From contig CM068830.1 in the NCBI GenBank assembly GCA_028554795.2, positions 47,072,227 through 47,136,226 of the forward strand: a stretch of DNA of 64,000 bases. Direction: 5' to 3'. Under the pieces are notes generated by a model, which worked only from the letters and a program-made list of their open reading frames with translations, searched no databases and was not told the DNA's origin. Positions 16,113 through 35,368 of this stretch are shown here, piece after piece. Each line of letters begins with the position of its first letter. The first letter of the stretch is position 1. The DNA is from Sinohyriopsis cumingii (Eukaryota; Mollusca; Bivalvia; Unionida; Unionidae). The position numbers and the translations under genes were made by a program.

Positions 16113-16128
16113 GGCCCTGAAAAGGGCC
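16113..16128 (-). terminator. histone-type 3' stem-loop (left inner TIR)
   Basis: Read on the minus strand this is GGCCCTTTTCAGGGCC preceded by CCCAAA and followed by ACCCA: a 6-bp stem, TTTC loop and the flanks bound by SLBP on metazoan histone mRNAs. It lies 23 bases downstream of the stop of the minus-strand gene 16152-16382. A purine-rich CGAAAAGAGAATG follows, like the U7-binding downstream element. Confidence 0.75.
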
Positions 16129-16151
16129 TTTGGGTTTATGTTAATATGCCC

Positions 16152-16382
16152 TTAACATAAAGGGCATCTGCGGCATCTTCTTGTCCTCAAGCTGCGTCTT
16201 ACTCGAGGGCCATAAATCAGTGTCCTCTTGAGGCAACCTTGTCTTTCTACATACACTCTTCGTATCCACAGACTGGTGTCTGACTTGTCGACAACGGTCC
16301 ACTTGGACCGGACATACATGAGCATGTCCGTCCTAAACATCTTGGAAGACACAAGGGTGGATGATTCGACTGTGGTCCACAT
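16152..16382 (-). CDS. small basic protein, divergent left-end gene
   Basis: The minus-strand frame encodes 76 residues starting MWTTVESSTLVSS and ending in an Arg/Cys-rich tail (RRSLRTRRCRRCPLC). A TATAAATA box lies at 16427-16434, 45 bases upstream of the ATG, and a histone-type stem-loop lies 23 bases past the TAA. I count it as a real gene because both a promoter and a 3' signal fit this small frame. I do not recognise the family; the basic tail suggests nucleic-acid contact (inference). It is transcribed divergently from 16600-17175. Confidence 0.55.
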   Translation of the reverse strand: MWTTVESSTLVSSKMFRTDMLMYVRSKWTVVDKSDTSLWIRRVYVERQGCLKRTLIYGPRVRRSLRTRRCRRCPLC

Positions 16383-16599
16383 CTTGAAGCGACGAGAACA
16401 GGCGAATCAATGCAGTGAACTGCGCTTATTTATAGGTAGAGGAAGGATTGAAACGGATTGAGTTCATTCACCAATCCTAACACGCGTTACAAAATTCAGT
16501 CAGCCCTCATCCAATCCGAAGAGAGCAGTTTGTGACGTCACGGTCTATATAGATTCGCTAGCGCCTGTGTGCAGTCAATCTATGTGACAGTGATTCAAC
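16383..16599. promoter_or_regulatory. bidirectional promoter with TATA boxes and CRE site
   Basis: The 217-base interval holds TATAAATA for the minus gene (16427-16434) and TATATAGA for the plus gene (16546-16553). It also has a perfect TGACGTCA (16533-16540) six bases upstream of the latter. Likely plus-strand initiation falls near GCAGTCAATC (about 16571-16580), 25-30 bases after the TATA box. Confidence 0.65.
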
Positions 16600-17175
16600 A
16601 TGACGGAAACTCAGAAAACGATTCATTGGGGTGCACCAGCAGTGGAGACCACCCAAGGGAACCCGGACTTACTTTCAGAAGAGGTAAATTGGGATTTTGT
16701 GGATTTTCTTACCTCGCAAGAATTTGTTCCGGAACCTTCGTTACCTTCTTCATTACCGCAAGTAGAGAATTTTAGACAGAGACAGAAAGAAGAATTGGAT
16801 AAATTTATACAACGACAAAAGGAAGAGGAACAAGCTTTTCTCCTACAGCAACAGCAGCAAAAAGAAGAGGTAAGAAAAAAACAAGAAGAAGAAGAAGAAG
16901 AAGTAGCAGCAAAGAAACAAGAGGGTGAAAATCAAACGGTCACGGTACTGTTGGACATTTTAGCGGAGTTAAGAAGTCTGAAACAAATGTATCAGACTTC
17001 TTTATTACGACCGAAGAGAATACGACCTTCCCGAGCTAAACACGTCAACCCTGTGACTAAGCCTGTCGTACCACCCTTAGTGATTTCAACCAAATCATCA
17101 TCATCAACAGTACGCAGTCCAGAAGTAGGCCTTGGCCGTGGCAAAGGCTTAAGGCAGTTAAAGTTGATTGCTTAA
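16600..17175 (+). CDS. coiled-coil protein, left-end gene with histone-type 3' end
   Basis: This 191-residue protein has an acidic N-terminal third. A Gln/Glu/Lys-rich helix from about residue 64 to 112 (RQRQKEELDKFIQRQKEEE, then QQQQQ and EEEEEE runs) should form a coiled coil. The tail is basic and Ser/Pro-rich, ending GRGKGLRQLKLIA. The ATG at 16600 is the first in frame after the TATA box at 16546. A histone-type stem-loop starts 23 bases after the TAA. Composition resembles the right-end genes at 33056, 33951 and 34750, but sequence similarity is limited to the helical part. Function unknown. Confidence 0.7.
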   Translation: MTETQKTIHWGAPAVETTQGNPDLLSEEVNWDFVDFLTSQEFVPEPSLPSSLPQVENFRQRQKEELDKFIQRQKEEEQAFLLQQQQQKEEVRKKQEEEEEEVAAKKQEGENQTVTVLLDILAELRSLKQMYQTSLLRPKRIRPSRAKHVNPVTKPVVPPLVISTKSSSSTVRSPEVGLGRGKGLRQLKLIA

Positions 17176-17197
17176 ACTCACCCCTGCACCAAAAAAA

Positions 17198-17213
17198 GGC
17201 CCTTTTCATGGCC
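17198..17213 (+). terminator. histone-type 3' stem-loop (one stem mismatch)
   Basis: GGCCCTTTTCATGGCC, followed by ACCCA (17214-17218), has the TTTC loop and five of six stem pairs; the fifth pair is a C-T mismatch. It follows the stop at 17175. A purine-rich CGAAAAGAGATAG follows at about 17225-17237. From about 17240 to 17457 I see no gene. Confidence 0.7.
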
Positions 17214-17457
17214 ACCCACATTTCTCGAAAAGAGATAGCCTTTCAATTTGCCAATAACTCAAAAAAAACAACCCATTTTACCCCTATAGTACGTTTCTTT
17301 TGTATGAGTGCATGAGTGTACGTTCTTATTTTAAAATCATAACTCAAAGACACTTACCTTATATAATTAATTTATTCTTTTATCCATTGTTACAATCCAA
17401 TTCACAATTCACAACATAACACTTTAATTAAAAGTTCATTGACTTCTTTCTCCTTGT

Positions 17458-17916
17458 TTAGTCTCTCTGTTTTTTGAATTTCTTCACCGTCTTTTCCTCT
17501 TCTTTCTCCTCATTTTCTTCCCTTCTTCTTTTCTTCTCCTGTTTCTTTGCCTCTTGTAAATAGAATTGTCTTCTTTCTTCCTCTTCTTCCTCTGAAGAAT
17601 CCCTCTCTTCTTCTGAAGAATTCCTCTTTTCTTCTGACTCCTCTTGTTTCTTTTTTGGGCAATCTGGAGACCAATGTCCTTTTTCATGACAATAATAACA
17701 GGTATCTTGACTTCTGTCTTTTTTAGCCCTTTTGTTTCTTTTTTGACGGTCTGGACACTCTGAAGACCAATGCCCTTTCTTCTGACAGATATAGCAAGTA
17801 TCTTGACTTTTATCTCGAAAGGAAGGAGAGTAGTCCGTGGGCTGGTCTGAAGAGAATTTTCTAATGACCCCTCGCAAAGCTCTGACGAAACGTTCGATTT
17901 GGCTAGTCTCTTCCAT
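17458..17916 (-). CDS. zinc-knuckle protein
   Basis: The minus-strand frame from the ATG at 17914-17916 gives 152 residues. It has an N-terminal helical part (MEETSQIERFVRALRGVIRK) and two CCHC knuckles (CYICQKKGHWSSEC and CYYCHEKGHWSPDC), each after a Ser-Gln-Asp-Thr stretch. A Glu/Lys/Arg-rich tail follows. I choose this ATG over an upstream one because a TATATAAAA box lies at 17971-17979, only 55 bases before it. Such knuckles bind single-stranded RNA or DNA, so a packaging or replication cofactor is plausible. The arm copies at 11554-11949 and 39535-39930 are broken paralogues with the same promoter layout. Confidence 0.8.
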   Translation of the reverse strand: MEETSQIERFVRALRGVIRKFSSDQPTDYSPSFRDKSQDTCYICQKKGHWSSECPDRQKRNKRAKKDRSQDTCYYCHEKGHWSPDCPKKKQEESEEKRNSSEEERDSSEEEEEERRQFYLQEAKKQEKKRRREENEEKEEEKTVKKFKKQRD

Positions 17917-18176
17917 CGTTGTGCTCGGTTTGAGAGTGAAATGAATAGTGAAAGGACAAGACACACACCCTTTTATATACGCTGGTTTGCCAGAACTATA
18001 AATTAGTCTATGGTGTTTAAACATGCGTCATTTGACGTTTTTCACTCAAGATGAAATGATCCTATTCATTCGAGAAGAAAGAAGAAGAAGAAAGTAAGAG
18101 GCAGAAACGTGATCTATCGCCTCGTACCAGGGCTGAAATCTTGGCACAAATTCATGCCAGTGATTTTGAAGAGGAC

Positions 18177-21100
18177 ATGAGTGAACCAGAATCCGAACCC
18201 TCTAAACCAAGTTCACCACCCTTAGTCAACCCTGAAAAATACTATTCCATTCGAGAGACGGAAAAGCGCTCCTCTAGAAAATTTAGAACCACGGCTTACA
18301 AATACACAGTGAAGTTTAAAGATTTCAAGGCTGAAGTACCCTTAGAGAAAGCAGAAGTGTTCATCACTGGGGTGTGGGATTCTTTGCTGACCGCACTCAA
18401 GCGACAATGTCAACCCAAAGAAGACGATCGCTTGAGACTTTCCATACAACACGACGGTTTGAAATCCCCTGTTTGGATCGAGTTTAGCAGCACTGCAGAA
18501 TTGACTGCTTCCAAAGTCATGGACAAGATTCAACACGTACAACAATCTAATGATCAGTTTGACATCACCGATGGTAAAGCCACACTGGACATGACCCACG
18601 TCTCTCCTCCTCAAGGGACTGGACGCAAAAAGATGTTATTGGTGGACGACCTTCGCAACACCAAAACAAGTCTCGTCCGAATTAACAACCCTCAAGACCA
18701 GATGTGTTTAGCCCGTGCCATCGTGGTGGGACTAACCTATGCCGACAAGAAGGACACGGTAGAATGGAAAAGAACCTGGGAGAACATTCGAAAATCGAAC
18801 CGAGCCAAACAACGAAACGAAGCAGAACTCCTGTTACAACAAGCCGGACTGTCCAAAGACATACCCTGTGGCATTCCTGAGATGCAAAAATTGCAAGATG
18901 CCCTAGCTCCACGATACACCTTGAAAGTGCACCCTCAAGAAATGCGTGGGTCTCTGTTGTTTCGAGGCCAAGATTTTAAGGACGGAAAATACATTCATGT
19001 CTATTATCACGATGAACATTTCGATACCATTACCAGTATCACTGCATTCCTGGGATATGTTTATTATTGTGAGAAATGTGATTATGGTTTGAATAGTCGA
19101 GAGCAACACAAGCATTGTGGGTTGAAATGCTCAGGATGTTTGGCCTCTCCACCCTGTCTGAGCGAAGAACCAGTGCCTTGTTCAACTTGTCTGCGCACGT
19201 TTGTCAGCCCTACCTGTTACCAACAACATTTGAAAACACAAGGTTCACAGAAGAAATGTGCTTGTCAACTGCTGAGATTGTGCCCTACCTGTGGACAAGG
19301 CATACTTACCAATAATGCCAAGGCACACGTATGTCGAGGAAAGAAAAAATGTCACATTTGTCACCACATCGTGGACTTGGAACACCAATGCTACGTGCAA
19401 AAATACCAACCCCCACCAGAGAAAGAGGACGGTCACAAGAAGAAAGGCAATTTCATCTTTTTCGATTTCGAATGCATGCAAGAGACTGGCATTCACATTC
19501 CTAATTTCTGCGTGGCTCATCGAGCGTGCGAAAAGTGCATTCAAGAACCTATTTTCAGTCATTGCCCTCACTGCAGCAAGATTCCCGGAGGGCGTGAAAA
19601 AATCTTTCGGGGACCGAACACGTTAGCCGATTTTGCCCAATGGGTCTTAGACCCCATCAACAAGACGTGGAGCCAAGAGGACATCGAACGTTACGGAGAT
19701 TGTCATCGTCATGCCACGGTGATGGCTCACAATTTTTCCGGATACGATGGACAGTTTCTTTTGAGATACTATACGGAACAAGGCACCGAGCGTCCTAAAG
19801 TCACTTTGAACGGAGCCAAAATCATTTTCATGCAAGTGGGACAAGTACAGTTTAAAGATTCGATGAGTTACTTGGCCATGCCTTTGAGCCGAATGCCTAA
19901 AACGTTTGGAATGACAGAAATGGCTAAAGGGTACTCTCCACACTTTTTCAATACGGAAGCCAATCAACACGCCGTTCTACCCCATTTACCTGAGGCTTAC
20001 TATTACGACCCCGACAACATGCGTACCGAACAACGAGAAGCTTTCTATGCTTGGTACCAGGCTCACACCTCGGACCCTTTCGACTTTCAAGAAGAAATGC
20101 TAAAGTATTGTCGTTCCGACGTGGACATTTTACGGCGTTGCTGTGGAAAATTTCGAGAACTGTTCATGGAACACGGAGGGGTCGATCCTTTGAAAGAAGT
20201 TTGCACCATTGCCAAAGCGTGTTCCTTAGTGTACCGGCAACGATTCATGCCTGAAAACACCGTAGCTGTCATCAGCCCTCAAACGACCCACTATGTCAAA
20301 CGTCAATACTCGGTCAAAGCCCTACGTTGGTTACTTTACTTGTGCGACAAGGAAGACAAGTGGATTCAGCATGCTCGCAACGGAGGGGTTGAAAAGACCA
20401 TCGGAACGTATTCGGTAGATGGCTGGGACTTAGAAAACCCCAAGATCGTGTACGAGTTTAACGGTTGCTTATTTCACGGATGTCCCGTCTGTTACCCTGA
20501 CCGTGGCACTAAAAATCAGTTTTTGCAACGAACCATGGAAGACTTGTACCAGGACACTTGTCAGCGGCGCCTAAAGTTGGAACAGGAAGGATACCAAGTG
20601 GTGGAAATGTGGGAACACGAGTACGATCACCGTATGAAAACCGATCCCGAGTTTAAACGCCTCGTGGAAAGTTACCAGTTCATGGACCCGCTGAACCCGA
20701 GGGATAGTTTGTACGGAGGAAGGACCAATGCCACCTGTTTGCTGTACCAAGCCGACGAAGAGAAAGGAGAAGAAATCAAATACTTGGACGTGTGTTCGCT
20801 GTATCCCTACGTGTGCAAATATTGTCGCTTTCCTGTAGGGCACCCGCAATTGTTAACGGAACACATCGACCTGAAAAACATTCGACAATACGAAGGCTTG
20901 ATCAAGTGTAAAGTTGTGCCTCCCACGAGCCTATACCATCCCGTCTTACCTCACCATTGTCAAGGCAAACTGATGTTTCCCTTGTGCCGTACTTGTGCCG
21001 AAACGTGCAACCAAGACCAACCTTGTCAGCACACCCAGGAAGAACGTGCCTTGACGGGAACCTGGGTCAGCGTAGAATTGTTCAAAGCTCTGGACATGGG

Positions 21101-22091
21101 ATACCAACTGTTAGAAGTGTACGAAATTTGCCACTTTCCCAAGACAGAACAATACCACAAGGGTGATCCCAGTCAGAAAGGCATTTTCGCCGACTACGTG
21201 GATGCCTTTTTGAAAATGAAGCAAGAAGCCAGCGGCTATCCTTCCTGGTGTCACACTCCCGAAGACCAAATACAATTCAAAGAGAAATACTATGAACAAG
21301 AAGGCATCTCTTTAGATCACATCGAGAAAAACGAAGTCAGGCGATCGTTTGCCAAAGTGATGTTAAATTGCTTGTGGGGTAAAATGGCACAACGACCGTG
21401 TTTACCCAAGACGGAATATTTGACAGAACCTTCCCGCTACTTCCACATGATTCACGACAAAACCAAGTACATGAAACACGTGGACGTCGTTCGCGAGGAT
21501 TTGATCTTGGTCAATTACTAAGAAGATCTGGACTTTGTACAAGACGACCCTTTTGGAAATGTCATCATTGCGGCTTACGTGACAGCCCATGCTCGCTTAA
21601 AATTGTACGAAGCTTTAGAACTGTTAGGGGAACGCGTCCTGTACTTTGACACGGACAGTTGCGTTTACATTCATCACCCGAGTCAACAGCACCCTGATAT
21701 CGAAGGAGACCGTTTAGGAGCCTGGACAGACGAGCATCCCGACGACGAGATTCTAAGTTTCGTCAGTGGCGGTCCCAAAAATTACGGCTACGAATACCGG
21801 GACAAACAAGGAGAAGTGCACACGACGTGCAAAGTGAAAGGACTGACTCTGAATTATCGTACCAGTCGTGTGGTGAACTTTGGGGTATTGAAAGAAGCCT
21901 TGCAATCGAGAGAGGATGAACACTTTAAAGTGACCACCTATCAACCGAACAAGATTGTACGTTTACCCACTCACCACATCGTCAGTCGACCCTTGGAAAA
22001 AGTCTATCAAATCGTGTACCAGAAGCGAGTTCGACTTCCCAATCATTTCACCTTACCGTATGGACACGTTGGTATAAAACATTGGTTGTAA
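18177..22091 (+). pseudogene. polB: protein-primed DNA polymerase B, one in-frame stop
   Basis: This is the family B polymerase that copies Polinton DNA from a protein primer. The first in-frame ATG is at 18177. An N-terminal domain is followed by a long Cys/His-rich insert (about 19070-19390). Then come exonuclease motifs Exo I (FFDFE, about 19460), Exo II (HNFSGYDGQ, about 19725) and Exo III (YCRSDVDIL, about 20105). Polymerase motif A follows (DVCSLYPYV, about 20788), then motif B (KVMLNCLWGK, about 21356) and motif C (YFDTDS, 21642-21659). A TAA at 21519-21521 interrupts the frame between motifs B and C. The same frame resumes immediately and runs to 22091, so without suppression the product lacks the catalytic motif C. 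Total coding span is about 1,300 codons, normal for the family. The single nonsense change suggests recent loss. Confidence 0.93.
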
Positions 22092-22114
22092 GAGGATAGT
22101 CACCCGCTAGAAGG

Positions 22115-22566
22115 ATGACTTCGCCACAGCAAGAATCGAGTGAGAAACCCGATGAGAACTCCAAGTTCAAACCCTACCATTTTCCAGTCTTCTTACCTGA
22201 CTATTGTGATTGTGCCCGTCGATTGGACACGTTTCAGAAATGGCCTACGGATAGGGAAGGATTACCTTCTTCGCATGTTTTAGCTAGAACAGGATTTGTC
22301 TACTTGGGGCCTGAGTCAGGATTGGGATACAGGTACAGTGTTTCGCTTGCGGACTGAAGTTACGAATGGATCTATGTATCTATAAAGATTCAGCTATTCT
22401 GGAACATACTCGATGGTCTCCGCACTGCCCTTACCTTTCTATGGCCTTTCCACCCATCACACTACGGTACATTGATGACGGTACCTTAGAGACGCTACCT
22501 TCCAAAACAAGACATAAAAAACGTAAAAAAGGAACGATGTACAAGCTTGAGACTGCATGCGACTAG
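22115..22566 (+). pseudogene. BIR-domain (IAP-like) gene 1, frameshifted
   Basis: The frame starts at ATG 22115 and opens a BIR domain (RRLDTFQKWP, then LARTGFVYLG). A frameshift near 22318-22328 puts the zinc-binding half in the next frame: CFACG, then EHTRWSPHCPYL. The four zinc ligands (C-x2-C, H, C) are all present across the two frames. A basic tail follows to the TAG at 22564-22566, directly abutting the next TATA box. BIR proteins inhibit caspases or apoptosis signalling; large DNA viruses carry them for host control. As it stands the gene is broken. It lies 23 bases after the polymerase stop. Confidence 0.75.
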
Positions 22567-22576
22567 TATAAAAAGG
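22567..22576 (+). promoter_or_regulatory. TATA box TATAAAAAGG
   Basis: TATAAAAAGG starts right after the stop codon of the upstream BIR gene and lies 63 bases before the ATG at 22630, with an initiator-like TTCATTG around 22600. Confidence 0.6.
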
Positions 22577-22629
22577 GGCTATGGTCAAGATCGATAGTTC
22601 ATTGTGACTACCAAGACCGAGCGAACAAG

Positions 22630-22842
22630 ATGAATACTTTCAGAGAAACACAAAACAAGTTGTTTAGAAAGGCACAATTCAAGTGTGAGGCTTCTGAAGT
22701 GGAATGCGATTGTGAGCCTTGCGATGGGTACGATGCTGTACGTTGTGACCTGAGCGATGCCGTAAAGCATCATGGGAACTTTGTTCTCACGACCCCTATC
22801 ATGGAAAGTGATGCTGTGCGTTTCAAACCTGAGGGATGTTAA
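22630..22842 (+). CDS. small Cys/Asp-rich frame, possible 5' part of the second BIR gene
   Basis: The first ATG after the 22567 TATA box opens 70 residues with a Cys-Asp-Cys-Glu-Pro-Cys cluster and repeated SDAVR/SDAVK blocks, ending at a TAA. The same frame stays open past the stop and reaches the region around 22927. It may be the damaged 5' half of the following BIR gene. No family is recognised. Confidence 0.35.
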   Translation: MNTFRETQNKLFRKAQFKCEASEVECDCEPCDGYDAVRCDLSDAVKHHGNFVLTTPIMESDAVRFKPEGC

Positions 22843-22926
22843 AGTGATGCCGCTCGTCCTCTTGGACATTTTACTGGGTTTCGATTTAAAGGGGAATGTT
22901 CACCTTCACGTCTACCCCCCCTACGG

Positions 22927-23250
22927 ATGTCATCCAGCCCTGAGCAAACTCCTGCCCATGTCACTCAACCCTTATCGAAACGAACCTGTGAAAGACGAAT
23001 ATTCGTTCCCTGTGCGTTTGTCGGAATATTGCGACTTTGAAAATCGTCTTCAATCGTTCAAAGGAAAATGGCCTAAGTATCTGGGAGGACCGACCCCCGA
23101 AGAATTAGCCAGAGCCGGATTTTTCTACTTGGGCGAAGGAGATAAAGTCAAGTGCTTCAGTTCCGGTGTGTCACTTCACCACTGGGAACCGCAAGATTCG
23201 GCCTACGTAGAACATGCTCGATAGTCACCGAATTGTCATTACTTACCCTT
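22927..23250 (+). pseudogene. BIR-domain (IAP-like) gene 2, degenerate
   Basis: From ATG 22927 the N-terminal residues resemble those of gene 1 but the BIR itself lies in another frame. It reads RLQSFKGKWP, then LARAGFFYLGEGDKVKCF. The second zinc-ligand Cys is Ser (CFSSG) and the conserved Trp after EHAR is a TAG stop (23222-23224); the expected Ser-Pro-x-Cys follows in frame. Thus two separate lesions remove zinc binding. It is a tandem paralogue of 22115-22566 and more decayed. Confidence 0.7.
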
Positions 23251-23280
23251 AGTGGGACCGAGACATTGAAGTAACTTACC

Positions 23281-23673: not shown

Positions 23674-23694
23674 ATTGTACGGACTGACTTATTC

Positions 23695-24883: not shown

Positions 24884-24890
24884 AACATTC

Positions 24891-24896
24891 AATAAA
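24891..24896 (+). terminator. polyadenylation signal AATAAA
   Basis: AATAAA lies 8 bases after the TGA at 24883, between this gene and the ATPase promoter. It shows that this part of the element uses ordinary poly(A) signals. Confidence 0.6.
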
Positions 24897-24912
24897 CGTG
24901 TTCTGAAAAAAG

Positions 24913-24920: not shown

Positions 24921-24966
24921 CTCTTGTCTTGTTTGTTTTCGTGTCACAAGTGACATTTCTCACACT

Positions 24967-25695: not shown

Positions 25696-25696
25696 T

Positions 25697-26756: not shown

Positions 26757-26805
26757 AAAGGCCCTCGGAAGTCCCAACATTTCAGAATCGACCCCTGACA
26801 ACCCC

Positions 26806-27414: not shown

Positions 27415-27442
27415 CACACAAACAAACACAAAAAAATAAAAA

Positions 27443-28552
27443 ATGGAAAAAGTCTTAGCCAGCATTTACTACGATCCCTCGCATCCTGCAGGTTACGCAG
27501 GAGTTCAAAAACTGTATCGTGCTGCCAAAACTCGATTGAAAAGTCTCCGTTTACCTCAAGTGCAACGATGGTTACAAGAACAAGCTACCTACACTTTACA
27601 CAAACCCATTCGACGCAAGTTTTCCAGAAGTCGCACCCGAGTGGAAGGCTTCGATCATCAATGGCAAGCCGATTTAGCCGATGTCTCTCATTTGGTCAGC
27701 TACAATCGTGGCTACAAATATTTGTTTTGTGTCATCGACGTCTTTTCCAAATTTGCCTGGGTCGTGCCCTTGACTTCCAAATCGAGCAGCGAGTTAGTGC
27801 GAGCCCTGCAACGGGTGTTGAAACAAAGTGGCCGTCACCCTCTTCGATGGCAAACGGACAAAGGCACCGAATTTCTGAACCAAGCTTTGCAAAAAGATTT
27901 AAAGAAACGTGACATTCATTTTTTTACCACCGAGAATCCCGAAACCAAAGCCAGCATCGTGGAACGTTTTCAACGCACTTTGAAAGAACGCATGTGGAAA
28001 TATTTTACGCATCACCACACTCTGAAGTACATCGACATCTTACCACACCTGGTGCAAGTGTACAACCAATCTTACCATCGAAGCATCGGACGTGCCCCGC
28101 AAGACGTGACTCCCGAGAACGAATTGTTGGTGTTTGAGCGCCTGTTTGGTACGTCTCCGACGAGGGCTGTCCCCAAGAAAAGTGGAGAGTTGGCCGTAGG
28201 AGATTGGGTGCGCATTGGCAAAACCAAACGCACTTTCGACAAAGGTTACTTACCTAACTGGACCACCGAACTGTTTCGTGTCACTGAACGAGTGCATGGC
28301 CGTCATCCTACCGTCTATAAATTGGAAGACATGAACGGAGAAGTGCTCAAAGGAACGTTTTATTTGCCCGAATTACAACGTGTCACCAAAAAAGAAGACG
28401 ACGTGTACGACATCGAAAGCATTCTCGAACGCAGAACCCGTAAAGTGGGAAAACGACGTGTCAAAGAAGTCAAAGTACGTTGGAAAGGATATCCACCCAG
28501 TTTTGATTCTTGGATCGACGCTTCGCAAGTCATCGACTATAAAAAGAAGTGA
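27443..28552 (+). CDS. int: retroviral-type integrase with chromodomain
   Basis: This 369-residue enzyme inserts the element into host DNA. The RNase H-fold core carries the DDE triad: Asp77 (WQADLADVS), Asp139 (QTDKGTEF) and Glu174 (ASIVERFQRTL), with 34 residues between the last two. The N-terminal zinc-binding part is reduced. The C-terminal ~50 residues are a chromodomain (DVYDIESILERR, then VRWKGYPPSFDSW), which in other elements directs integration to marked chromatin. The frame is fully open, one of the few enzymes of this copy without a lesion. Fragments of the same gene occur at 14396-14559, 36922-37085 and 43560-44408. Confidence 0.93.
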   Translation: MEKVLASIYYDPSHPAGYAGVQKLYRAAKTRLKSLRLPQVQRWLQEQATYTLHKPIRRKFSRSRTRVEGFDHQWQADLADVSHLVSYNRGYKYLFCVIDVFSKFAWVVPLTSKSSSELVRALQRVLKQSGRHPLRWQTDKGTEFLNQALQKDLKKRDIHFFTTENPETKASIVERFQRTLKERMWKYFTHHHTLKYIDILPHLVQVYNQSYHRSIGRAPQDVTPENELLVFERLFGTSPTRAVPKKSGELAVGDWVRIGKTKRTFDKGYLPNWTTELFRVTERVHGRHPTVYKLEDMNGEVLKGTFYLPELQRVTKKEDDVYDIESILERRTRKVGKRRVKEVKVRWKGYPPSFDSWIDASQVIDYKKK

Positions 28553-28557
28553 CCATC

Positions 28558-28914
28558 ATGCCCTTTCACACAGACGCAGCTACGTCGACCACTCCTCCTT
28601 CACCCAGTTCTTCTGTGCAAGATTTACAAAAACAACCCTTGTGGGTGTGGTGCGGAGAACGTGTGCCTAAAACGCAAATCGTCTTTTCCTGCCAAATCGT
28701 CGTGGTGTATTGTGTCATCGGAGCAGCCATTGCCAATTTGAGTTTGCAACAAGGAGACAAACAATTGTGGACCATTTTATTGAGCAGTTGCATCGGTTAC
28801 CTGCTTCCTAATCCCTCCCTGAAATTCTCCTCGAACGGGAACCACGGGAACCTTGTGTCCAGTGTCAGTGCCAGTCACCACTCCAACCACAATAACAACC
28901 CCATTTTCAGCTGA
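28558..28914 (+). pseudogene. two-helix membrane protein, shortened by a stop
   Basis: From ATG 28558 (6 bases after the integrase stop) 118 residues are read. Hydrophobic segments lie near residues 42-64 (CQIVVVYCVIGAAIANLSL) and 70-86 (LWTILLSSCIGYLL), followed by an Asn/His/Ser tail. Compared with the arm copy and the decayed copy, the frame ends about 20 codons early at TGA 28912-28914. The missing tail is still readable in frame up to the TGA that overlaps the penton ATG. The stop is thus private to this copy. Both membrane spans are intact, so the protein may still work. Confidence 0.7.
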
Positions 28915-28967
28915 GACACACCTTTGACGTCCAGTAACCCCTCGGACAGCCACAGAACTCTGGAATT

Positions 28968-29900
28968 ATGAGTCACGAAAACCAATTTTACTTAACCTTA
29001 CCCAGTGACAGTTCCATGGAGGTGTTTCCCCACAACACGTTGTGCTGTTACGCGGCCAAATTACCTCAGGCCATCCCCTTAGATCACGAAGCCCATTGGG
29101 AAGTGGCTTTAGTGGAAATCATTCACCCGACCCAAGTCGAAAATGTCCTTCCCAATCAAAATAAATTTGATGTAGAAGTTCATGACGAGCAAATGCAACA
29201 GTGGATGGATACCAATGTCAAATATGACAAGAAATTCCGTACACAAAATCAAAAGTCGACCATCTATCACTTGTTCATTCCCCCAGGCTATTATTTTAGT
29301 GGTCAACATTTGGTCAGCACCATAACCACCAGGTTTAATGGCGTGTTTCTGAAAGCTTTGGAGTATTTCAAAAAAAGTGTCACCCTGGAATACCACAAAA
29401 CAGCTCGTCGCTTCCTGATGAAATTTCCTGAGGGGGGTAAAATCATGTCTTTCTTATTTTGTCCAGAATTGTTTGACATGTTGGGCGGAGACATGAACAT
29501 GAGAATGGCCATGATCAAGAAAAACGAATTACCCATCGTTTACGACAACGAGTCTTTTAACAAGTTATTTCGTACCCCGGTAGAACTGAACCAAGGAATG
29601 AATTTGATGTTCGTATACTCCGATGTGGTGGAGTACAACGTGGTGGGACACACCTCCGTGCCGTTACTGCGTGTCATTCCTTTCAAAGTGGATTCTGCCA
29701 CGAACGCTGACGAGGAAGGTGGAAACACTTACCACGTCCACCGCAAATTTGTCCATCCTCACTATTTGCCTGTCAGCAAGTCGTGTATGGACACGGTCAA
29801 CATTGCTATAAAAGGAGATCTGGGACAAAATATTCCATTCACCAAAGGAAAAGTCACGGTGAAACCCCATTTTCGAAAACGGTTCTCTCACGACTCGTAA
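28968..29900 (+). CDS. minor capsid (penton-like) protein
   Basis: This 310-residue protein contains the conserved blocks LPSDSSMEVFP, HWEVALVEIIHPTQ, GYYFSGQHL, VVEYNVVGHTSVPLLRVIPF and a C-terminal HPHYLPVSKSCMDTVNIAIK. In Polintons this gene lies beside the major capsid gene and is assigned to the single jelly-roll minor capsid (penton base-like) proteins that form vertices. The assignment is by family resemblance, not structure. The frame is intact. A TATAAAAGG at 29807-29815 within its 3' end is likely the promoter of the next gene. Truncated copies lie in both arms. Confidence 0.8.
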   Translation: MSHENQFYLTLPSDSSMEVFPHNTLCCYAAKLPQAIPLDHEAHWEVALVEIIHPTQVENVLPNQNKFDVEVHDEQMQQWMDTNVKYDKKFRTQNQKSTIYHLFIPPGYYFSGQHLVSTITTRFNGVFLKALEYFKKSVTLEYHKTARRFLMKFPEGGKIMSFLFCPELFDMLGGDMNMRMAMIKKNELPIVYDNESFNKLFRTPVELNQGMNLMFVYSDVVEYNVVGHTSVPLLRVIPFKVDSATNADEEGGNTYHVHRKFVHPHYLPVSKSCMDTVNIAIKGDLGQNIPFTKGKVTVKPHFRKRFSHDS

Positions 29901-29903
29901 GTC

Positions 29904-30302
29904 ATGTATCCAGTGTACCGAGGGGTTGCTCGACAGCGAGGACACGGTTTAGGAGATATGTTAAAATCGGCCTTTCGTTCGGTGGCCCCGGTGTTGAAAC
30001 CGATGGTGACACGCGGATTGCACGCCTTGAAAGATGCGGCACTGACGCAAGGCAAAGAATTTCTCCAAAATGTCATCGTCGACAAACAAAACCCTAAAGA
30101 AGCCTTCATGCGGGCAGGCAAAAATGTCTTGCTGCAAACGGGCAAAGACCTTTTGGGCCGCCGAGAAACACCTATAAATGCCCTGCACGCTACGAGTCAG
30201 GCATTCAGCAAGGACAAGGCAGAAAGAGACGACAAAGAAAACACCCTTTCACCAGACTTCAAGCTAGAAAGGCCAAGAAAAGAAGAACCGTTCGAGACTT
30301 AG
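29904..30302 (+). CDS. pVI/pX-like virion protein, C-terminus displaced by a frameshift
   Basis: The 132-residue frame starts MYPVYRGVARQRGHGLGDML and continues with an amphipathic, Gly/Ala/Val-rich segment (SAFRSVAPVLKPMVTRGL). This is the layout of adenovirus pVI/pX-type membrane-active minor virion proteins and of Polinton proteins in this position. The last ~35 residues are low-complexity. The arginine-rich end that matches the decayed copy (KKRRTVRDLDVFDY) lies in the +1 frame and ends at TGA 30317-30319, so a small indel near 30180-30195 is likely. The upstream TATAAAAGG at 29807 is 89-97 bases before the ATG. Confidence 0.65.
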   Translation: MYPVYRGVARQRGHGLGDMLKSAFRSVAPVLKPMVTRGLHALKDAALTQGKEFLQNVIVDKQNPKEAFMRAGKNVLLQTGKDLLGRRETPINALHATSQAFSKDKAERDDKENTLSPDFKLERPRKEEPFET

Positions 30303-30333
30303 ACGTTTTCGATTATTGAGAAAGAGACAAAAA

Positions 30334-31647
30334 ATGATGCACCGAGAGTCATGTGCTTGTTCCAAGTCGGAACTGGATATGTTTGCCATGCCCCCCACCA
30401 TGATGACCATGCAAGAATCCCAGTGGGTGGAATTTCATCCCGTCTCCTCATTGACCGATTCCGCTCCCATCGAGTTTGAAATCAAAGGACAGCCCGAAGA
30501 TTACATCGATCTGAATAGCAGTTACTTGTACTTGAAAGTGAAAGTGATCGAACCACCCAACGCTAACCTAGACAATGATGATGCAGTAGCTCCCGTCAAC
30601 AATTTCATGCATTCCTTGTTTAGCGAAGTGGACTTGTACTTGAATAACAAACTGGTCAGCAGCAGCATGGATACTTACCCTTACCAAGCGTACCTGGAAA
30701 ATCTTTTGACGTACGGAAAAGAAGTGAAGAACACTCATCTGGATGCTTGCGTGGTATGGAAACCTGACCAAGCGACTAAGTTCAACGGCATTACACTTGC
30801 TGTGGATGCTTCAAATCCAACGGGATTTGTAGAACGACGAAAGAAAATTCATCTAAGTCGTAGTTTAGAACTGATGGATCGTTTGCATTTGGACATGTGG
30901 TTACAAGAAAAGTATTTGCTGAACGGGGTGGATATCCGCTTGAGACTGAATCGCAGCAGTGCCACTTTCCATTTGATGGCTGCTGCTGATGCCACTTACA
31001 AAACCATCATTCAAGAAGCCAGGCTCTACGTGCGTCGCGTAGAAGTGTTACCTAAAGTGGGAAACGACATCAGTCAGACGTTGAGCAGAACGACCGCCAA
31101 GTATCCGATACGTCGCGTGGAAGTGAAAACGTTCACGATTCCCACTGGACAGCGATCTATGATCGAAGATCATCTGTTCCAAGGACAGCTACCCAAACGT
31201 TTAATCCTTGGCATCGTAAGCAATGCAGCCTTCAATGGAGTCTACAACGAAAATCCTTTTGAGTTTAAGCATAACAATGTGTCCAAGATTGAAGTCAGTC
31301 GCGATGGCAAAACCTTGTGTACCCGACCTTTCGAACCTAACTTTACCCAGAAGAATTACTTGAGATCGTACTTGTCCCTGTACGAAGCCACTGGTCAGTT
31401 AGGAACCAACACCAGTCACGGCATTACGTACGACGATTATGAAGGAGGCTATGCTTTGTGGGCTTTCGATTTCACTCCTGACCAAGGCAGCGACGAGGGA
31501 CATTTCCACCCTATAAAATCCGGCCAGATTCGAGTGGAAATTCAGTTTGCGAATGCTCTACCAAACACGGTGAACGTGATCCTGTATGCAGAATTTGATA
31601 ATACCATAGAGATCAACAGTTTGAGAGAAGTCATTCTAGACTATTAG
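30334..31647 (+). CDS. mcp: major capsid protein (double jelly-roll type)
   Basis: From ATG 30334 (437 residues) the protein shows the conserved start CACSKSELDMFAMPP, then ESQWVEFHPV, DSAPIEFEIKG and DYIDLNSSYLYLKV. These are followed by HSLFSEVDLYLNNKLVS, MDTYPYQAYLENLLTYG, YLLNGVDIRLRL and the C-terminal YAEFDNTIEINSLREVILDY. It is the family often annotated as F54H12.2-like in animal genomes and recognised as the Polinton hexon-like major capsid. It forms the icosahedral shell. The frame is intact. A TATAAAA at 31512-31518 inside the gene probably drives the next one. The decayed homologue is at 46199-47521. Confidence 0.85.
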   Translation: MMHRESCACSKSELDMFAMPPTMMTMQESQWVEFHPVSSLTDSAPIEFEIKGQPEDYIDLNSSYLYLKVKVIEPPNANLDNDDAVAPVNNFMHSLFSEVDLYLNNKLVSSSMDTYPYQAYLENLLTYGKEVKNTHLDACVVWKPDQATKFNGITLAVDASNPTGFVERRKKIHLSRSLELMDRLHLDMWLQEKYLLNGVDIRLRLNRSSATFHLMAAADATYKTIIQEARLYVRRVEVLPKVGNDISQTLSRTTAKYPIRRVEVKTFTIPTGQRSMIEDHLFQGQLPKRLILGIVSNAAFNGVYNENPFEFKHNNVSKIEVSRDGKTLCTRPFEPNFTQKNYLRSYLSLYEATGQLGTNTSHGITYDDYEGGYALWAFDFTPDQGSDEGHFHPIKSGQIRVEIQFANALPNTVNVILYAEFDNTIEINSLREVILDY

Positions 31648-31652
31648 AAGCT

Positions 31653-32138
31653 ATGGAAGACTCTTATCCCTCTTTACCTAGTGGAGAAACTTTGGAGATG
31701 AAATGTGAGGAGACCGTGGAAAAAGAAGAAGTGATCATGATGAAGTCAAGATGGCAAGAACAAGAAGCCCATTTAGTCTCCTGTTTTGCCAAACACTTGG
31801 TGGAAAAAATGACGGAATTGATCAAGAAAAATTGCTATGGATGTCAAAACGATCATCCCAGTCAAATTCAACACGATAAATGCCTGATGTTAAGTCAAGA
31901 AGAAAAATTGGACGAGTATCTGGACGAAGCTTGGAGTCTCATCTCGGACGAAGTCGTGTGGCACCAGTGGTATAAAGACTTGCGTGAACATTCTTGTCCA
32001 CCATTAACCACTCAAGAGATCCATCGTATCGAAGCTCTCCTGAATCAGAGTGAGGAGACGAAACGAAGAAACGGCTATTTGTCAGACATTTTCAAGCAAA
32101 AAGTCAGGATCGAATTGACGACTTATTATTACCTGTGA
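31653..32138 (+). CDS. conserved Cys/His Polinton protein
   Basis: This 161-residue acidic protein has the motif CYGCQNDHPSQIQHDKC near residues 62-78, a likely zinc site, flanked by helices (AHLVSCFAKHLVEKMTELI and HRIEALLNQSEETKRR). Proteins with a C-x2-C, HPSQ, H, C arrangement occur between capsid and protease genes in Polintons; no function is known to me. The ATG is 5 bases after the major capsid stop. A TATAAAG at 31971-31977 lies in its 3' part upstream of the protease. Confidence 0.6.
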   Translation: MEDSYPSLPSGETLEMKCEETVEKEEVIMMKSRWQEQEAHLVSCFAKHLVEKMTELIKKNCYGCQNDHPSQIQHDKCLMLSQEEKLDEYLDEAWSLISDEVVWHQWYKDLREHSCPPLTTQEIHRIEALLNQSEETKRRNGYLSDIFKQKVRIELTTYYYL

Positions 32139-32158
32139 AGAAAAAAACACACAAAACA

Positions 32159-32719
32159 ATGGATACCTGGGAACTTTATTACCTTTTGAACCACAGTTCG
32201 TATACGGCTTCTTGGAATCCTGTCGTCTGTGCTAAAGATGAACTCCCTCATCGCAAACCTCAAGACCATCAAGCTTATGTGATCAACACGGACGACAGTT
32301 ATCTCCCAGGAACCCACTGGGTAGCCGTTTACTTTCCTCAAGAAGGATGTGTGGAATATTTTGATTCGTACGGATTGCCCACTTTGGAAGACGATATCAT
32401 TGACTTTATGAGAAGAAATGCTCAAACCACCCGATTCAATAATGTGAAATTACAAGGCACAGATTCCTTGGTGTGTGGACAGTACTGTGTGTATTTTCTG
32501 CATCATCGCAGCCTGGGTTATTCCTTAGAACATTTAGTGACTCATTTTGATCCTCGTTCTTCTTCTAGAAACGATGTGAAAGTAGGTAGATGGTTTTGTG
32601 ACCATTATGCTTATCTTTTGTCTCAAGCTAGGAAACGTAGTGTCCATCAATGGCCTAATGATTTCCAACAGTGGAAATCACAGTTTCATTCACAACGTTG
32701 TCAGCCCTGTTTGAAGTAG
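32159..32719 (+). CDS. pro: adenain-like cysteine protease
   Basis: This 186-residue protease would mature virion proteins. The catalytic His lies in GTHWVAVYF, the Asp in YFDSYGLP and the Cys in VCGQYCVYFLH, with the Gln of the oxyanion hole just before (order His-Asp-Cys as in adenovirus protease and Ulp1-type enzymes). The ATG at 32159 is chosen because the frame upstream has no other ATG and overlaps the previous stop. The frame is intact. An AATAAA at 32831-32836 follows. The decayed copy is at 48039-48560. Confidence 0.9.
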   Translation: MDTWELYYLLNHSSYTASWNPVVCAKDELPHRKPQDHQAYVINTDDSYLPGTHWVAVYFPQEGCVEYFDSYGLPTLEDDIIDFMRRNAQTTRFNNVKLQGTDSLVCGQYCVYFLHHRSLGYSLEHLVTHFDPRSSSRNDVKVGRWFCDHYAYLLSQARKRSVHQWPNDFQQWKSQFHSQRCQPCLK

Positions 32720-32830
32720 AGTGTGAATTGAAAAAATGTTTGTCATTTTTTAAAAAAATGTTTGATGTTATATGGTTGGATTATTGTTAAAAAATTGTTA
32801 GAGTTGTTGTTTAGTGTTAAGTGATTTTTG

Positions 32831-32836
32831 AATAAA
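32831..32836 (+). terminator. polyadenylation signal after the protease gene
   Basis: AATAAA, 112 bases past the protease stop, followed by a TTGTGTTTTG stretch. The decayed element keeps an AATAAA at the same place (48659-48664). Confidence 0.6.
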
Positions 32837-32963
32837 AATGTTGTGTTTTGAAAAAAAATGCCTTTGTGGTTTGTTTGGCTATAAGAATGTTTGATTCATG
32901 CTCTTTGACTTCTCTCTATCCCTCTCATGACACTCATTGAACGTTGCGACTCGAAAACCGTGT

Positions 32964-32990
32964 GGGGGATGTTTTCCTTCACGTCCGCGC
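32964..32990 (+). promoter_or_regulatory. shared upstream promoter block, copy 1
   Basis: A 27-base block with core GGATGTTTTCCTTCACG ending CCGCGC stands about 10 bases before a TTTAAGAA TATA-like box and 66-92 bases before ATG 33056. The same block precedes the two other right-end coiled-coil genes (33860, 34589, 34658) and is recognisable before their decayed relatives. Confidence 0.75.
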
Positions 32991-33055
32991 TTTGACTTTA
33001 AGAACCGGGTTGTTTCCAGTCTAACCATCCATTGTCGACTCATCCTCGTACGAAG

Positions 33056-33427
33056 ATGTGCTCCAAACTAGCTAAGCTAAACGAAGCCTACGTGAATTTG
33101 CATAGGGTCAGACACAGTGTGATACCGAAGCCAGAAGAAATAGAGAATGTGAGAATGTTAAAAGTCACTGAAGACCTGATAGAAGAGCTCTTCAGAGAAG
33201 AAGTGAACAGGGAGAAAGAAGAATGGACAGAGAAGTACAGACTTCAGAGACAGCAGCAACAGCAGCAACAGCAACAACAACAACAGCAGCAGCAGCAGCA
33301 ACCTGAACCTGACAGAGGCTTTGTCGATTGCCGTATCGACACCAAAGAGTTCTTCTTCTCTTTCCGAAGAAGCAGACCTATCGCCAGAAAGTCTATCCTC
33401 AGAGGACATCGCATTCTTAGAAACTAA
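33056..33427 (+). CDS. coiled-coil/polyQ protein with histone-type 3' end
   Basis: From ATG 33056, 123 residues: a helical N-terminal part (KLAKLNEAYVNLHRVRHSV, then MLKVTEDLIEELFREEV), a pure Gln run of about 19 codons mixing CAG and CAA (about 33249-33302), and a basic C-terminus. The N-terminal KLAKL pattern is shared with the 33951 gene, so the two are paralogues. The upstream block at 32964 and the stem-loop 35 bases after the TAA define a compact unit. The decayed relative at 48869-49137 lacks the long Gln run. Function unknown. Confidence 0.65.
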   Translation: MCSKLAKLNEAYVNLHRVRHSVIPKPEEIENVRMLKVTEDLIEELFREEVNREKEEWTEKYRLQRQQQQQQQQQQQQQQQQQPEPDRGFVDCRIDTKEFFFSFRRSRPIARKSILRGHRILRN

Positions 33428-33461
33428 AAGATTGCCATAGCAAACAAAAAAAACAAAAAAC

Positions 33462-33477
33462 AGCCCTTTTCAGGGCT
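33462..33477 (+). terminator. histone-type 3' stem-loop
   Basis: AGCCCTTTTCAGGGCT with TTTC loop and ACCCA directly after (33478-33482). The basal pair is A-T instead of G-C at both positions, a compensatory change relative to 35353-35368. An A-rich AACAAAAGAAATA follows. Confidence 0.75.
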
Positions 33478-33482
33478 ACCCA

Positions 33483-33859
33483 ATTCTCAACAAAAGAAAT
33501 AACCATCGATTTGCCAATGTGTGTGTGTGTAGGTAGAGTAGTGTGAATATAAACACTAACTCTTTTTTTAATAGTGCGAGGGTATGTGTTAGTGTATAGG
33601 ATTGTGTGTTTGTAAGTGCTCACGTACGTTGGTGTGGATAGTAGATTAAGGTCATGTTTTTTTGGTGTTTGAGGTGTGGGGAGAGTAGATTTGGGGGTTT
33701 TTTGATTGAATTGCTTTGCGTATGTGAATAGTCTATTGAAGTGATTAATGAAAAAATATTTTTAGAATAGGAATGGGAAGTATAAAAAAGTGAGTGTTTC
33801 TTTTAGGTCCGCACGTTGTTTTTGGTCATGATCTAGGTAAGATCAATTTTATGTTTTTA
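33483..33859 (+). other. GT-rich intergenic spacer
   Basis: No gene is seen. The spacer holds GT-rich stretches with CTCACGTACGTTGGTGTGGA and GATAGTAGATT blocks related to the end tracts at 10687 and 50280. The 35-base block TTTTGGTCATGATCTAGGTA plus AGATCAATTTTATG (33817-33853) recurs at 34619-34653. Confidence 0.6.
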
Positions 33860-33885
33860 GGGGGATGTTTTCCTTCACGTCCGCA
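33860..33885 (+). promoter_or_regulatory. shared upstream promoter block, copy 2
   Basis: GGGGGATGTTTTCCTTCACG followed by TCCGCA, eight bases before TATAAATT (33893-33900) and 66-91 bases before ATG 33951. Confidence 0.75.
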
Positions 33886-33950
33886 CTTTTAGTATAAATT
33901 GAAACTCGTTCGGCAGTCCAGCTACCCTTGTTGATTGATCAACACCAAAA

Positions 33951-34301
33951 ATGAACACCAGACTAGCGAAACTGTTGGAACTTCATGTGCATCTGGAATA
34001 TGCCAGGCGGCTGTTGAACGAACTGGCCGCGGAGGCCATTGTCGAAGAGGGAAGGATGAGAGAGGAGGAGGAAAGAAGAAACAAAGAAGAGGAGGAGAGA
34101 AGATACAAAGAAGAGGAGGAGAGAAGAAACAAAGAAGAGGAGGAAAAGGAGAGAAGAAGAAGAAATTTCAGAATCCCAGAGACCGAAAATTGGGATTCTG
34201 AAGCCACATATCCTGCCTCTGCTCTCTCCCCAAAAAAAGTTAAAAGCAACTGGGGAACAAGATGTGTATGTGGCGCCAGGCCTGGAAGGTGCCACCATTA
34301 A
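33951..34301 (+). CDS. coiled-coil protein with Glu/Lys/Arg repeats and histone-type 3' end
   Basis: This 116-residue protein starts MNTRLAKLLELHVHLEYARR. From residue 41 to 69 it has repeats of EEEERRNKE/EEEERRYKE (24-base tandem units at about 34060-34145), followed by an Arg cluster and a Trp/Glu segment (ETENWDSEATYP). A C-terminal CVCGARPGRCHH could bind zinc. It is a paralogue of 33056-33427 by its first 20 residues. The decayed relative at 49668-50215 keeps the same start. Likely a strong coiled coil; role unknown. Confidence 0.65.
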   Translation: MNTRLAKLLELHVHLEYARRLLNELAAEAIVEEGRMREEEERRNKEEEERRYKEEEERRNKEEEEKERRRRNFRIPETENWDSEATYPASALSPKKVKSNWGTRCVCGARPGRCHH

Positions 34302-34335
34302 CCAGGTGTCCATGAAGTTCCAAAAAAAAAAAACC

Positions 34336-34351
34336 AGCCCTTTTCAGGGCT
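34336..34351 (+). terminator. histone-type 3' stem-loop
   Basis: AGCCCTTTTCAGGGCT, ACCCA following (34352-34356), 34 bases after the TAA at 34301; AGAAAAGAAATAAC downstream is purine-rich. It is the twin of 33462-33477, suggesting the gene units were duplicated together with their 3' signal. Confidence 0.75.
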
Positions 34352-34588
34352 ACCCAATACTCCAGAAAAGAAATAACTATCCATTTGCCAATGTGTGTAG
34401 GTAGAGTAGTGTGAATATAAACACTGACGCTTTTTTTCATAGTGCGAGTGTATGTGTTTGTGTGTTAGTGTTTGTGTTTGTAACCGTTGTCGTATGCTTG
34501 TGTGAATAGTAGATTATGGGTTTCTTTATTGTTTCTTAGCGTATGTGGAGAGTATAGTTTGGGTTTTGTTATATGAAATGAGAAAGTA

Positions 34589-34684
34589 GGGGGATGTTTT
34601 CCTTCACGTACGCGCGTTGTTTGGTCATGATCTAGGTAAGATCAATTTTATGCCTTAGGGGGATGTTTTCCATCACGTCCGCGC
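34589..34684 (+). promoter_or_regulatory. shared upstream promoter block, copies 3 and 4
   Basis: Two copies stand in tandem: 34589-34615 (ending ACGCGC) and 34658-34684 (GGATGTTTTCCATCACG, ending CCGCGC). They are separated by the GGTCATGATCTAGG repeat. A TATAAGAA box follows at 34691-34698 and the ATG at 34750. The upstream copy looks like a remnant of a lost gene unit or a doubled enhancer. Confidence 0.7.
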
Positions 34685-34749
34685 TTTCACTATAAGAACC
34701 CACAGTATTCGTCGTTCAAACCATTCTACAAAGAATCAAAAAAAAGAAG

Positions 34750-35331
34750 ATGGAAGTGTCCCAACTGTTCAATGATTTAAGGCATGTTTATTTTTGGATG
34801 GTGGATGGTGAATATGGAGTTGAAAGGATTGAAAGAGATTGGAGGTTAAGAACCAGTGTGCACTACGTGAACGAACTAAAATTAGCCAGGGAGATGGTAG
34901 AAGGATTAATTGAAGAAGAAGTGAAGAGACTGAGAGGGCTAATAAATCCCCCTTATGCCAGAGTGGGAACATTAAAAGAGGCCCTGGAGAAGGTAGAAGA
35001 AGTAAGAAGGTTTATGGAAGAGATAGAAAAAAGGTCAGAGTGGCCCTTTGTCAAAAGGACTGTTGAAAGATTGAAAAAAGGGGAAGAAAAGATGAGAAAG
35101 GTGATAGATGAAGAAGTGGAGAAAATAAAGGACAGGTGGGCAAAAGATAGAAAAGAAGAAGAAAATAGAAAGAAAAAGGAAGAACTAGAAAAACTGAACG
35201 CTAACTGGATAAAAATCCAAGAGAAGTTCCGAGCCATGGGTCACCCGGACTGGATGCCGGAAACAGAAAAGAAGAAGAAGAAAGGAATGATGGAAAAAAT
35301 AAGAGGATGGTGGAAGGAGTTAAGGAGTTAG
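34750..35331 (+). CDS. long coiled-coil protein with histone-type 3' end
   Basis: This 193-residue protein has a Trp/Tyr-containing N-terminus (MEVSQLFNDLRHVYFWMVDG) followed by almost continuous helix rich in Glu, Lys and Arg (ELKLAREMVEGLIEEEVKR, then KVIDEEVEKIKDRWAKDRK). It ends in a basic KKKKKGMMEKIRGWWKELRS. It has no Gln run and little similarity to the other right-end genes beyond composition. Codon use is strongly GAA/AAA, unlike the capsid genes. It ends 22 bases before a perfect histone-type stem-loop located in the right terminal repeat. Confidence 0.65.
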   Translation: MEVSQLFNDLRHVYFWMVDGEYGVERIERDWRLRTSVHYVNELKLAREMVEGLIEEEVKRLRGLINPPYARVGTLKEALEKVEEVRRFMEEIEKRSEWPFVKRTVERLKKGEEKMRKVIDEEVEKIKDRWAKDRKEEENRKKKEELEKLNANWIKIQEKFRAMGHPDWMPETEKKKKKGMMEKIRGWWKELRS

Positions 35332-35352
35332 AAGAAGAAGAAAAAACCCAAA

Positions 35353-35368
35353 GGCCCTTTTCAGGGCC
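35353..35368 (+). terminator. histone-type 3' stem-loop, perfect match
   Basis: GGCCCTTTTCAGGGCC with CCCAAA before and ACCCA after (35369-35373), 21 bases past the TAG at 35331. A purine-rich CGAAAAGAGAATGA follows at about 35380-35394, where histone pre-mRNAs carry the U7 snRNA site. It is the inverted copy of 16113-16128. Confidence 0.8.

Follow-up and report, generated by a model that had tools for sequence, protein, structure and literature searches.

Histone-type 3' ends on five small genes of a Polinton from the bivalve Sinohyriopsis cumingii, three of them preceded by a promoter element of the host's histone genes

The stretch of 64,000 nucleotides between positions 47,072,227 and 47,136,226 (forward strand) of contig CM068830.1 of Sinohyriopsis cumingii (Mollusca; Bivalvia; Unionidae; assembly GCA_028554795.2), referred to here as the window, contains at 9714..41733 an element with the hallmarks of a Polinton, namely terminal inverted repeats (TIRs), a 6-bp target-site duplication, a type B DNA polymerase (PolB), a retroviral-type integrase and a packaging ATPase. 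Five small open reading frames (ORFs) of this element are each followed by a stem-loop and purine tract that match the histone 3' untranslated region model of Rfam (RF00032; gathering score, 34 bits). The genes and the elements at their ends are as follows (E, expectation value).

16152..16382, minus strand: m76, ORF of 76 residues, isoelectric point 11.1; no Pfam match at E 0.01
16088..16133, minus strand: histone-type 3' element after m76; stem-loop 16113-16128 and GAAAAG tract; RF00032 40.8 bits, over gathering
16600..17175, plus strand: g191, ORF of 191 residues; no Pfam match over cut-off
17193..17238, plus strand: histone-type 3' element after g191; stem-loop 17198-17213; RF00032 31.5 bits, E 1.6e-5, below gathering
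33056..33427, plus strand: g123, ORF of 123 residues; no Pfam match over cut-off
33457..33502, plus strand: histone-type 3' element after g123; stem-loop 33462-33477; RF00032 31.1 bits, E 2.3e-5, below gathering
33951..34301, plus strand: g116, ORF of 116 residues
34331..34376, plus strand: histone-type 3' element after g116; stem-loop 34336-34351; RF00032 29.8 bits, E 7.1e-5, below gathering
34750..35331, plus strand: g193, ORF of 193 residues; predicted helical, low confidence
35348..35393, plus strand: histone-type 3' element after g193; stem-loop 35353-35368; RF00032 40.8 bits, over gathering

An earlier note on this DNA had reported five such hairpins, and a pattern search of the window located all of them at the same positions and strands: 16113-16128(-), 17198-17213(+), 33462-33477(+), 34336-34351(+) and 35353-35368(+). 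By chance, 0.17 matches to the pattern were expected in the window, and five were reached in none of 100 shuffles. Each hairpin starts 21-34 nt past the stop codon of a small ORF on the same strand, in agreement with the placement that had been described, and each has the A-rich 5' flank, the ACCCA 3' flank and the downstream purine tract that had been attributed to it; the tract begins 13 nt past the stem in all five cases and reads GAAAAG, but CAAAAG for g123. RF00032, which the earlier note had named as a check, was run and matches all five hairpins across the full 46 positions of the model with E values from 5.5e-9 to 7.1e-5, the gathering score being reached by two of them (m76 and g193); the refuting outcome named in that note, scores like those of shuffled sequence, was not obtained.

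The five hairpins are not five independent events. Those of m76 (16113-) and g193 (35353+) sit just within the inner ends of the TIR arms and are therefore one duplicated sequence, while those of g123 and g116 (33462 and 34336) fall in tandemly duplicated units. Consequently, the paired G-C to A-T exchange noticed earlier in two hairpins is indeed present, but as a single event. That the genes themselves might be histones was ruled out, as no histone domain was found in any of them with Pfam; only their signals are of this type. Three homologues of g193 were found in public ENA/JGI data (47-55% identity), and a single-sequence structure model of this protein is helical and of low confidence (predicted local distance difference test, 62.7). 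A comparison of the g123 protein with phages gave no match.

The identification of these structures as histone-type 3' ends, as first proposed in the earlier note, is supported by a comparison with the host: its histone genes also terminate in RF00032 elements, and these share the stem, have similar loops and carry GAAAAG at near-equal spacing. The host histone genes form tandem repeats of approximately 8.3 kb on many contigs; 150 of 662 candidates were scored and three repeat stretches were read. Their spacing takes two slightly differing values, such as 8,267 bp (contig C1058) and 8,292 bp (contig C1094). In all three stretches, each of the five histone genes is followed by an RF00032 element (35.0-39.4 bits). 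The stem of the Polinton hairpins, GGCCCT/AGGGCC, is identical in four of the host histone stems, with H1 having one paired change, and the TTTC loop is that of host H2B and H1. GAAAAG begins 13-14 nt past the stem in the host histone genes and 13 nt past it in the Polinton, and the distance from stop codon to hairpin is 21-34 nt in the Polinton compared to about 27-38 nt in the host. Across the ten stems (nine distinct rows), pairing is maintained in 98.1% of 54 cells, and in two stem pairs both bases are changed, once in g123/g116 and once in host H1; two such pairs arose in 29 of 500 shuffles and the covariation score was reached in 4 of 500. The host H1 protein is 97% identical to a public protein, and those with names among the 120 of 1844 matches listed are mostly H1 of mussels and oysters, in agreement with a bivalve host.

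For a comparison of flanking regions, 26 ORFs of the Polinton were selected, with overlapping and antisense ORFs excluded and two TIR ORFs entered once per arm, and each was compared with 100 shuffles. Downstream of the stop codon, the match to the host histone genes gave z scores of 12.5-19.2 for the five hairpin genes and of at most 2.8 for the other 21 ORFs. With the metazoan histone mRNA 3' end in general (RF00032; the pathway of SLBP and the U7 small nuclear ribonucleoprotein, snRNP), the Polinton elements have in common the stem, the four-base loop, the A-rich 5' flank and a purine tract 13-14 nt past the stem, and they are of the same class as the ends of this host's histone genes. They differ in following non-histone genes of a mobile element, in the A-T pair at the foot of two stems, in the flank ACCCA and in that three of the five matches fall short of the gathering score.

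A likeness to histone genes was also found upstream. A motif of about 25 bp, of the form GATGTTTTC(C/A)(A/T)TCACGTCCGCGC, lies upstream of a TATA-like box and is shared with host H2B and H1; it occurs four times in the window, where none was expected, and each time upstream of g123, g116 or g193. The promoter elements are located as follows.

32964..32988, plus strand: histone promoter element (the motif) before g123; upstream region most similar to that of host H2B, z 6.8
33797..33817, plus strand: promoter element of H4 type before g116; aligns with the upstream region of host H4, which is the best match (z 5.6)
33860..33884, plus strand: histone promoter element (the motif) before g116
34589..34613, plus strand: histone promoter element (the motif), distal copy before g193
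34658..34682, plus strand: histone promoter element (the motif), proximal of the two copies before g193; host H1 matches best (z 10.8)

The motif also precedes H2B and H1 in all three of the host repeat stretches, and in one of these (L048), among the matches listed, it is inverted before H2A and a variant of it stands before H4 and also before g116. Compared with the upstream regions of the five host histone genes, those of g123, g116 and g193 gave z scores of 6.8, 5.6 and 10.8, respectively, and those of the other 23 ORFs at most 2.1 (100 shuffles each). For g193, the match to the H1 upstream region extends over 54 nt and includes the TATA-like box (BLAST; E 3.8e-7 against a 9.6-kb host stretch). 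The shared element upstream of a TATA-like box is thus as in the host H2B and H1 promoters; here it precedes non-histone ORFs, at three of the five hairpin genes, and does so twice for g193. The possibility that all hairpin genes stand under a histone promoter was ruled out, as only three of the five do. By sequence, then, three of the genes are histone-like at both ends, and m76 and g191 at the 3' end only. The promoter element went unmentioned in the earlier note, and it lends independent support to the involvement of the histone programme that had been suggested from the hairpins.

The genes m76 and g191 diverge from a common region of 217 bp (16383-16599), which, by reading, has a TGACGTCA site, two TATA-like boxes and CCAAT-like boxes, and which differs from the histone-type promoters found at the other hairpin genes.

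Copies of the hairpin are abundant in the host. The exact 21-mer was found 13,559 times in the 2.9-Gb genome, compared to 0 for the reversed control, and all 26 places read around such 21-mers were Polinton sequence. These places correspond to 28 stretches (L010 lies within L054, and L012 and L013 overlap), all of them lying within 3.2 Mb of the start of contig 1 and chosen through the exact 21-mer. A Polinton has up to three such hairpins, and therefore thousands of copies or fragments are likely to be present in the host genome. At the site of g191 the hairpin is intact in 16 of 20 stretches, which had been selected by exact match; the remaining four are right-end pieces, and three of these four carry the promoter motif. 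With RF00032, at least one match over gathering was obtained in each of 20 further stretches of 7 kb (20/20), 33 in total, comprising the 20 hairpins used for selection and 13 of 20 others found by a loose pattern; AGCCC-type stems score under the cut-off in these stretches, as they do in the window. In one stretch (L055), two right ends of the element, each with hairpins and promoter motifs, face each other in inverted orientation within 7 kb.

The m76 hairpin is strongly conserved among the copies. Over its 16 nt, the mean majority frequency was 0.984 in 16 copies that had been picked by the g191 hairpin and that aligned over half of the query, a frequency reached by none of the 307 other 16-nt windows nearby; in the region of the m76 purine tract the value was 0.934. 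Substitution rates at codon positions 1/2/3 were 0.122/0.087/0.290 for m76 and 0.048/0.035/0.055, with little bias, for g191 (23 alignments each, one place counted twice), 0.042/0.017/0.046 for g123 (two alignments only), and 0.107/0.065/0.225 for g116 and 0.123/0.092/0.224 for g193 (four alignments each, L010 lying inside L054). Hence, m76, g116 and g193 change mainly at third codon positions. The window also holds a decayed second Polinton at 43129-50154, related to the first through tblastn pieces of 37-88% identity that include the integrase, the capsid and protease candidates, g123 and g116. By reading, this relic has a decayed promoter and two decayed hairpins at the corresponding places, and therefore the arrangement of hairpins and promoter probably predates the present copies.

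From signals whose presence, placement and match to the host were observed directly, it appears probable that this Polinton has brought five of its small genes under the pathway by which the host makes replication-dependent histone mRNAs. We infer that host SLBP would bind the stem-loop of the hairpin-gene mRNAs and that the U7 snRNP would pair with the purine tract downstream of the stem, whereupon the pre-mRNA would be cut a few bases past the stem to leave an mRNA end without poly(A). At least three of the genes would be drawn into the host's histone transcription program by the promoter element. Since it is in S phase that histone promoters and SLBP are active, the hairpin genes would be expected to be made during host DNA replication (S phase); other gene runs, which end near AATAAA, may follow the ordinary poly(A) route. 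More broadly, it seems likely that a Polinton family of probably thousands of copies has recruited the histone promoter and the SLBP/U7 3' end for a subset of its genes, such that one element would give rise to two classes of mRNA, one with poly(A) and the other a poly(A)-less S-phase class tied to host replication.

Several observations weigh against this assignment to the histone pathway. The hairpins of g191, g123 and g116 are the three that score under the RF00032 gathering value, and the 6-bp stem ascribed earlier to all five hairpins holds for four, that at 17198 having one stem mismatch in the window copy. The 3' flank ACCCA differs from the ACACA, ACAAA, ATACA and ACTTT of the host. 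Neither m76 nor g191 has a histone promoter (upstream z 0.7 each), and the upstream region of host H3 gave no match among the matches listed (BLAST, L048). Conservation of the hairpins of g116 (3 copies) and g123 (2 copies) is unexceptional, being equaled by 17.9% and 41% of windows, respectively, and the six bases that follow the m76 hairpin are less conserved (0.823), most of the 16 copies having AGCCA. With respect to polyadenylation, AATAAA was found within 600 nt of none of the hairpin genes, and it occurs near the ends of other gene runs, after the CCHC gene, g115 and the protease candidate, which suggests two classes of message; taken on its own this is a weak argument, because 15 of the 21 other ORFs also lack AATAAA or ATTAAA within 600 nt, and g191 has ATTAAA at +252. 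Lastly, one host genome was examined, and nothing comparable was found in viral or prokaryote contigs.

Among the viral contigs, searches with PolB alone and with the capsid candidate gave no match, and a search with an alignment of the PolB family led to one contig of 316 kb (L016, L017), in which no such hairpins were present in the 20-kb pieces examined. The exact hairpin pattern was found in seven stretches of viral contigs, none of which had an RF00032 match at E 0.01; two more stretches, known from the pattern match alone, are phage-like by reading of their ORFs. The prokaryote contigs gave one pattern match, in a Mycobacterium, which corresponds to the chance background.

Other explanations would account for some of these features. 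The transcripts may be processed by SLBP and U7 for maternal storage or poly(A)-free translation in oocytes and embryos, or for escape from poly(A)-based RNA surveillance, and not for S-phase timing. Oocytes must stabilize histone mRNA independently of the cell cycle, according to the relevant passage of one study (PMC12803260), and m76 and g191 demonstrate that the 3' end is separable from the histone promoter; the presence of that promoter element at three of the five genes nevertheless points to the histone transcription program, and this explanation is considered somewhat unlikely. It has very little probability, in our view, that the hairpins and promoter pieces are passive, functionless remains of captured histone gene fragments. 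Their strong similarity to the host's own histone flanks would be expected of such remains, as would broken or decayed copies, of which the hairpin at 17198 and the relic are examples, but none of the hairpin genes has a histone domain, the hairpin lies 21-34 nt past the stop codon at five ORFs, that of m76 is more conserved than any other surrounding 16-nt window in 16 copies, and the substitutions in m76, g116 and g193 are mainly at third codon positions.

It was also considered that the hairpin acts directly on the DNA or transcription of the element, as a terminator or as a packaging or replication signal, and that its likeness to histone ends is superficial. Two of the copies are at the inner TIR edges, and an identical 16-nt hairpin lies between two ORFs in a phage-like contig (L051), as such a role would allow. 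However, the match extends beyond the stem to the flanks and to a purine tract at about the host spacing, each of the five hairpins follows a stop codon on the coding strand, and the promoter match would be left unexplained, making this the most improbable of the explanations considered.

Histone stem-loops in the broad Polinton-like group are already in print, as a count: six were obtained in a cmscan of 8300 genomes of Polinton-like viruses and virophages in which gathering cut-offs were used, and none in the cryptophyte elements of that study (PMC12220804). In the passage concerned, the count occupies a single line of a list of non-coding RNA types, with no comment there on elements, gene ends, processing, hosts or role. 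The stem-loops belong to the same Rfam family as those described here, and are given in that passage without a link to a promoter (PMC12220804). The statement of the earlier note that no report of this in Polintons was known must be narrowed accordingly; what was not found in the open-licence literature searched is a link of such stem-loops to gene ends, to host histone signals or to a histone promoter, nor was a paper devoted to histone-type ends in mobile elements. The passages on histones, stem-loops and polyadenylation in three Polinton papers (PMC12721341, PMC10175614, PMC8363768) are unrelated. The histone genes of another bivalve, Lucina pectinata, likewise have a palindromic stem-loop near the stop codon and, in some genes, purine-rich elements; these are host histone genes with no mobile element, and the word promoter is absent from the available text (PMC6210712).

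If the Polinton does use the histone pathway, it would follow that promoter and 3' end can be captured together as a module, and a direct molecular link would exist between a virus-like element and the S phase of its host. To our knowledge, mRNA ends of this type are considered all but exclusive to the replication-dependent histones. The Polinton copies would also supply natural variants with which to define the requirements of mollusc SLBP, U7 and histone promoter factors; a U7 5' end of the CUCUUUUC type would be expected, pairing with the CGAAAAGAGA tract, and poly(A)-selected RNA libraries would miss the part of the element's output that comes from the hairpin genes. A search of a whole genome for histone stem-loops can be overwhelmed by matches in mobile elements, as with the 13,559 exact 21-mers found here.

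The remaining features of the Polinton are the following.

9714..41733, no strand assigned: Polinton element, 32,020 bp; inverted arms in several blocks, with a 6-bp duplication
9708-9713 and 41734-41739: 6-bp duplication ATCGTC flanking the Polinton (by reading)
Polinton termini: AGTAGTGAATA (by reading)
9714..16137, plus strand: left TIR arm, about 6.4 kb, in several gapped blocks
35344..41733, minus strand: right TIR arm, in blocks inverted relative to the left arm
18177..21521, plus strand: PolB; PF03175, E 1.6e-41
24967..25485, plus strand: A32-like packaging ATPase; PF04665, E 3.1e-8
27443..28552, plus strand: integrase with chromodomain; PF00665, E 3.7e-13, and PF00385, E 1.6e-7
30334..31647, plus strand: candidate major capsid protein, judged from its size and position; without a Pfam match over cut-off
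32159..32719, plus strand: putative adenain-like protease; no Pfam match; AATAAA about 112 nt past the stop codon

The assignments of the major capsid protein and of the adenain-like protease are putative, the latter being based on motifs and position, and neither candidate gave a Pfam match over cut-off. In its PolB, integrase, A32-like ATPase, 6-bp duplication and TIRs the element is like other Polintons (Mavericks), and it differs from them by TIRs of about 6.4 kb, by the histone-type gene ends and by the histone-type promoter on three genes. The innermost TIR block (13574-16137 and 35344-37907) is 99% complementary. The relatives of the PolB include proteins named from Mercenaria, Mytilus and Holothuria. 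The four nearest relatives have 1193-1272 residues and 43-45% identity, and the frame in the window stops ahead of C-terminal columns that are conserved in relatives; this copy of the Polinton is therefore damaged there.

Two genes of the TIR (134 and 255 residues; 14565-15733) resemble two from the interior of the element (118 and 310 residues; 28558-29900), with DNA blocks that are 82-95% alike, apparently through copying of genes between TIRs and interior. Between 55513 and 63999 the window holds traces of other elements: positions 55513-56043 encode a double-jelly-roll domain (PF21738), positions 61615-62226 encode an AAA_19 domain, and the right edge gives a weak match to integrase.

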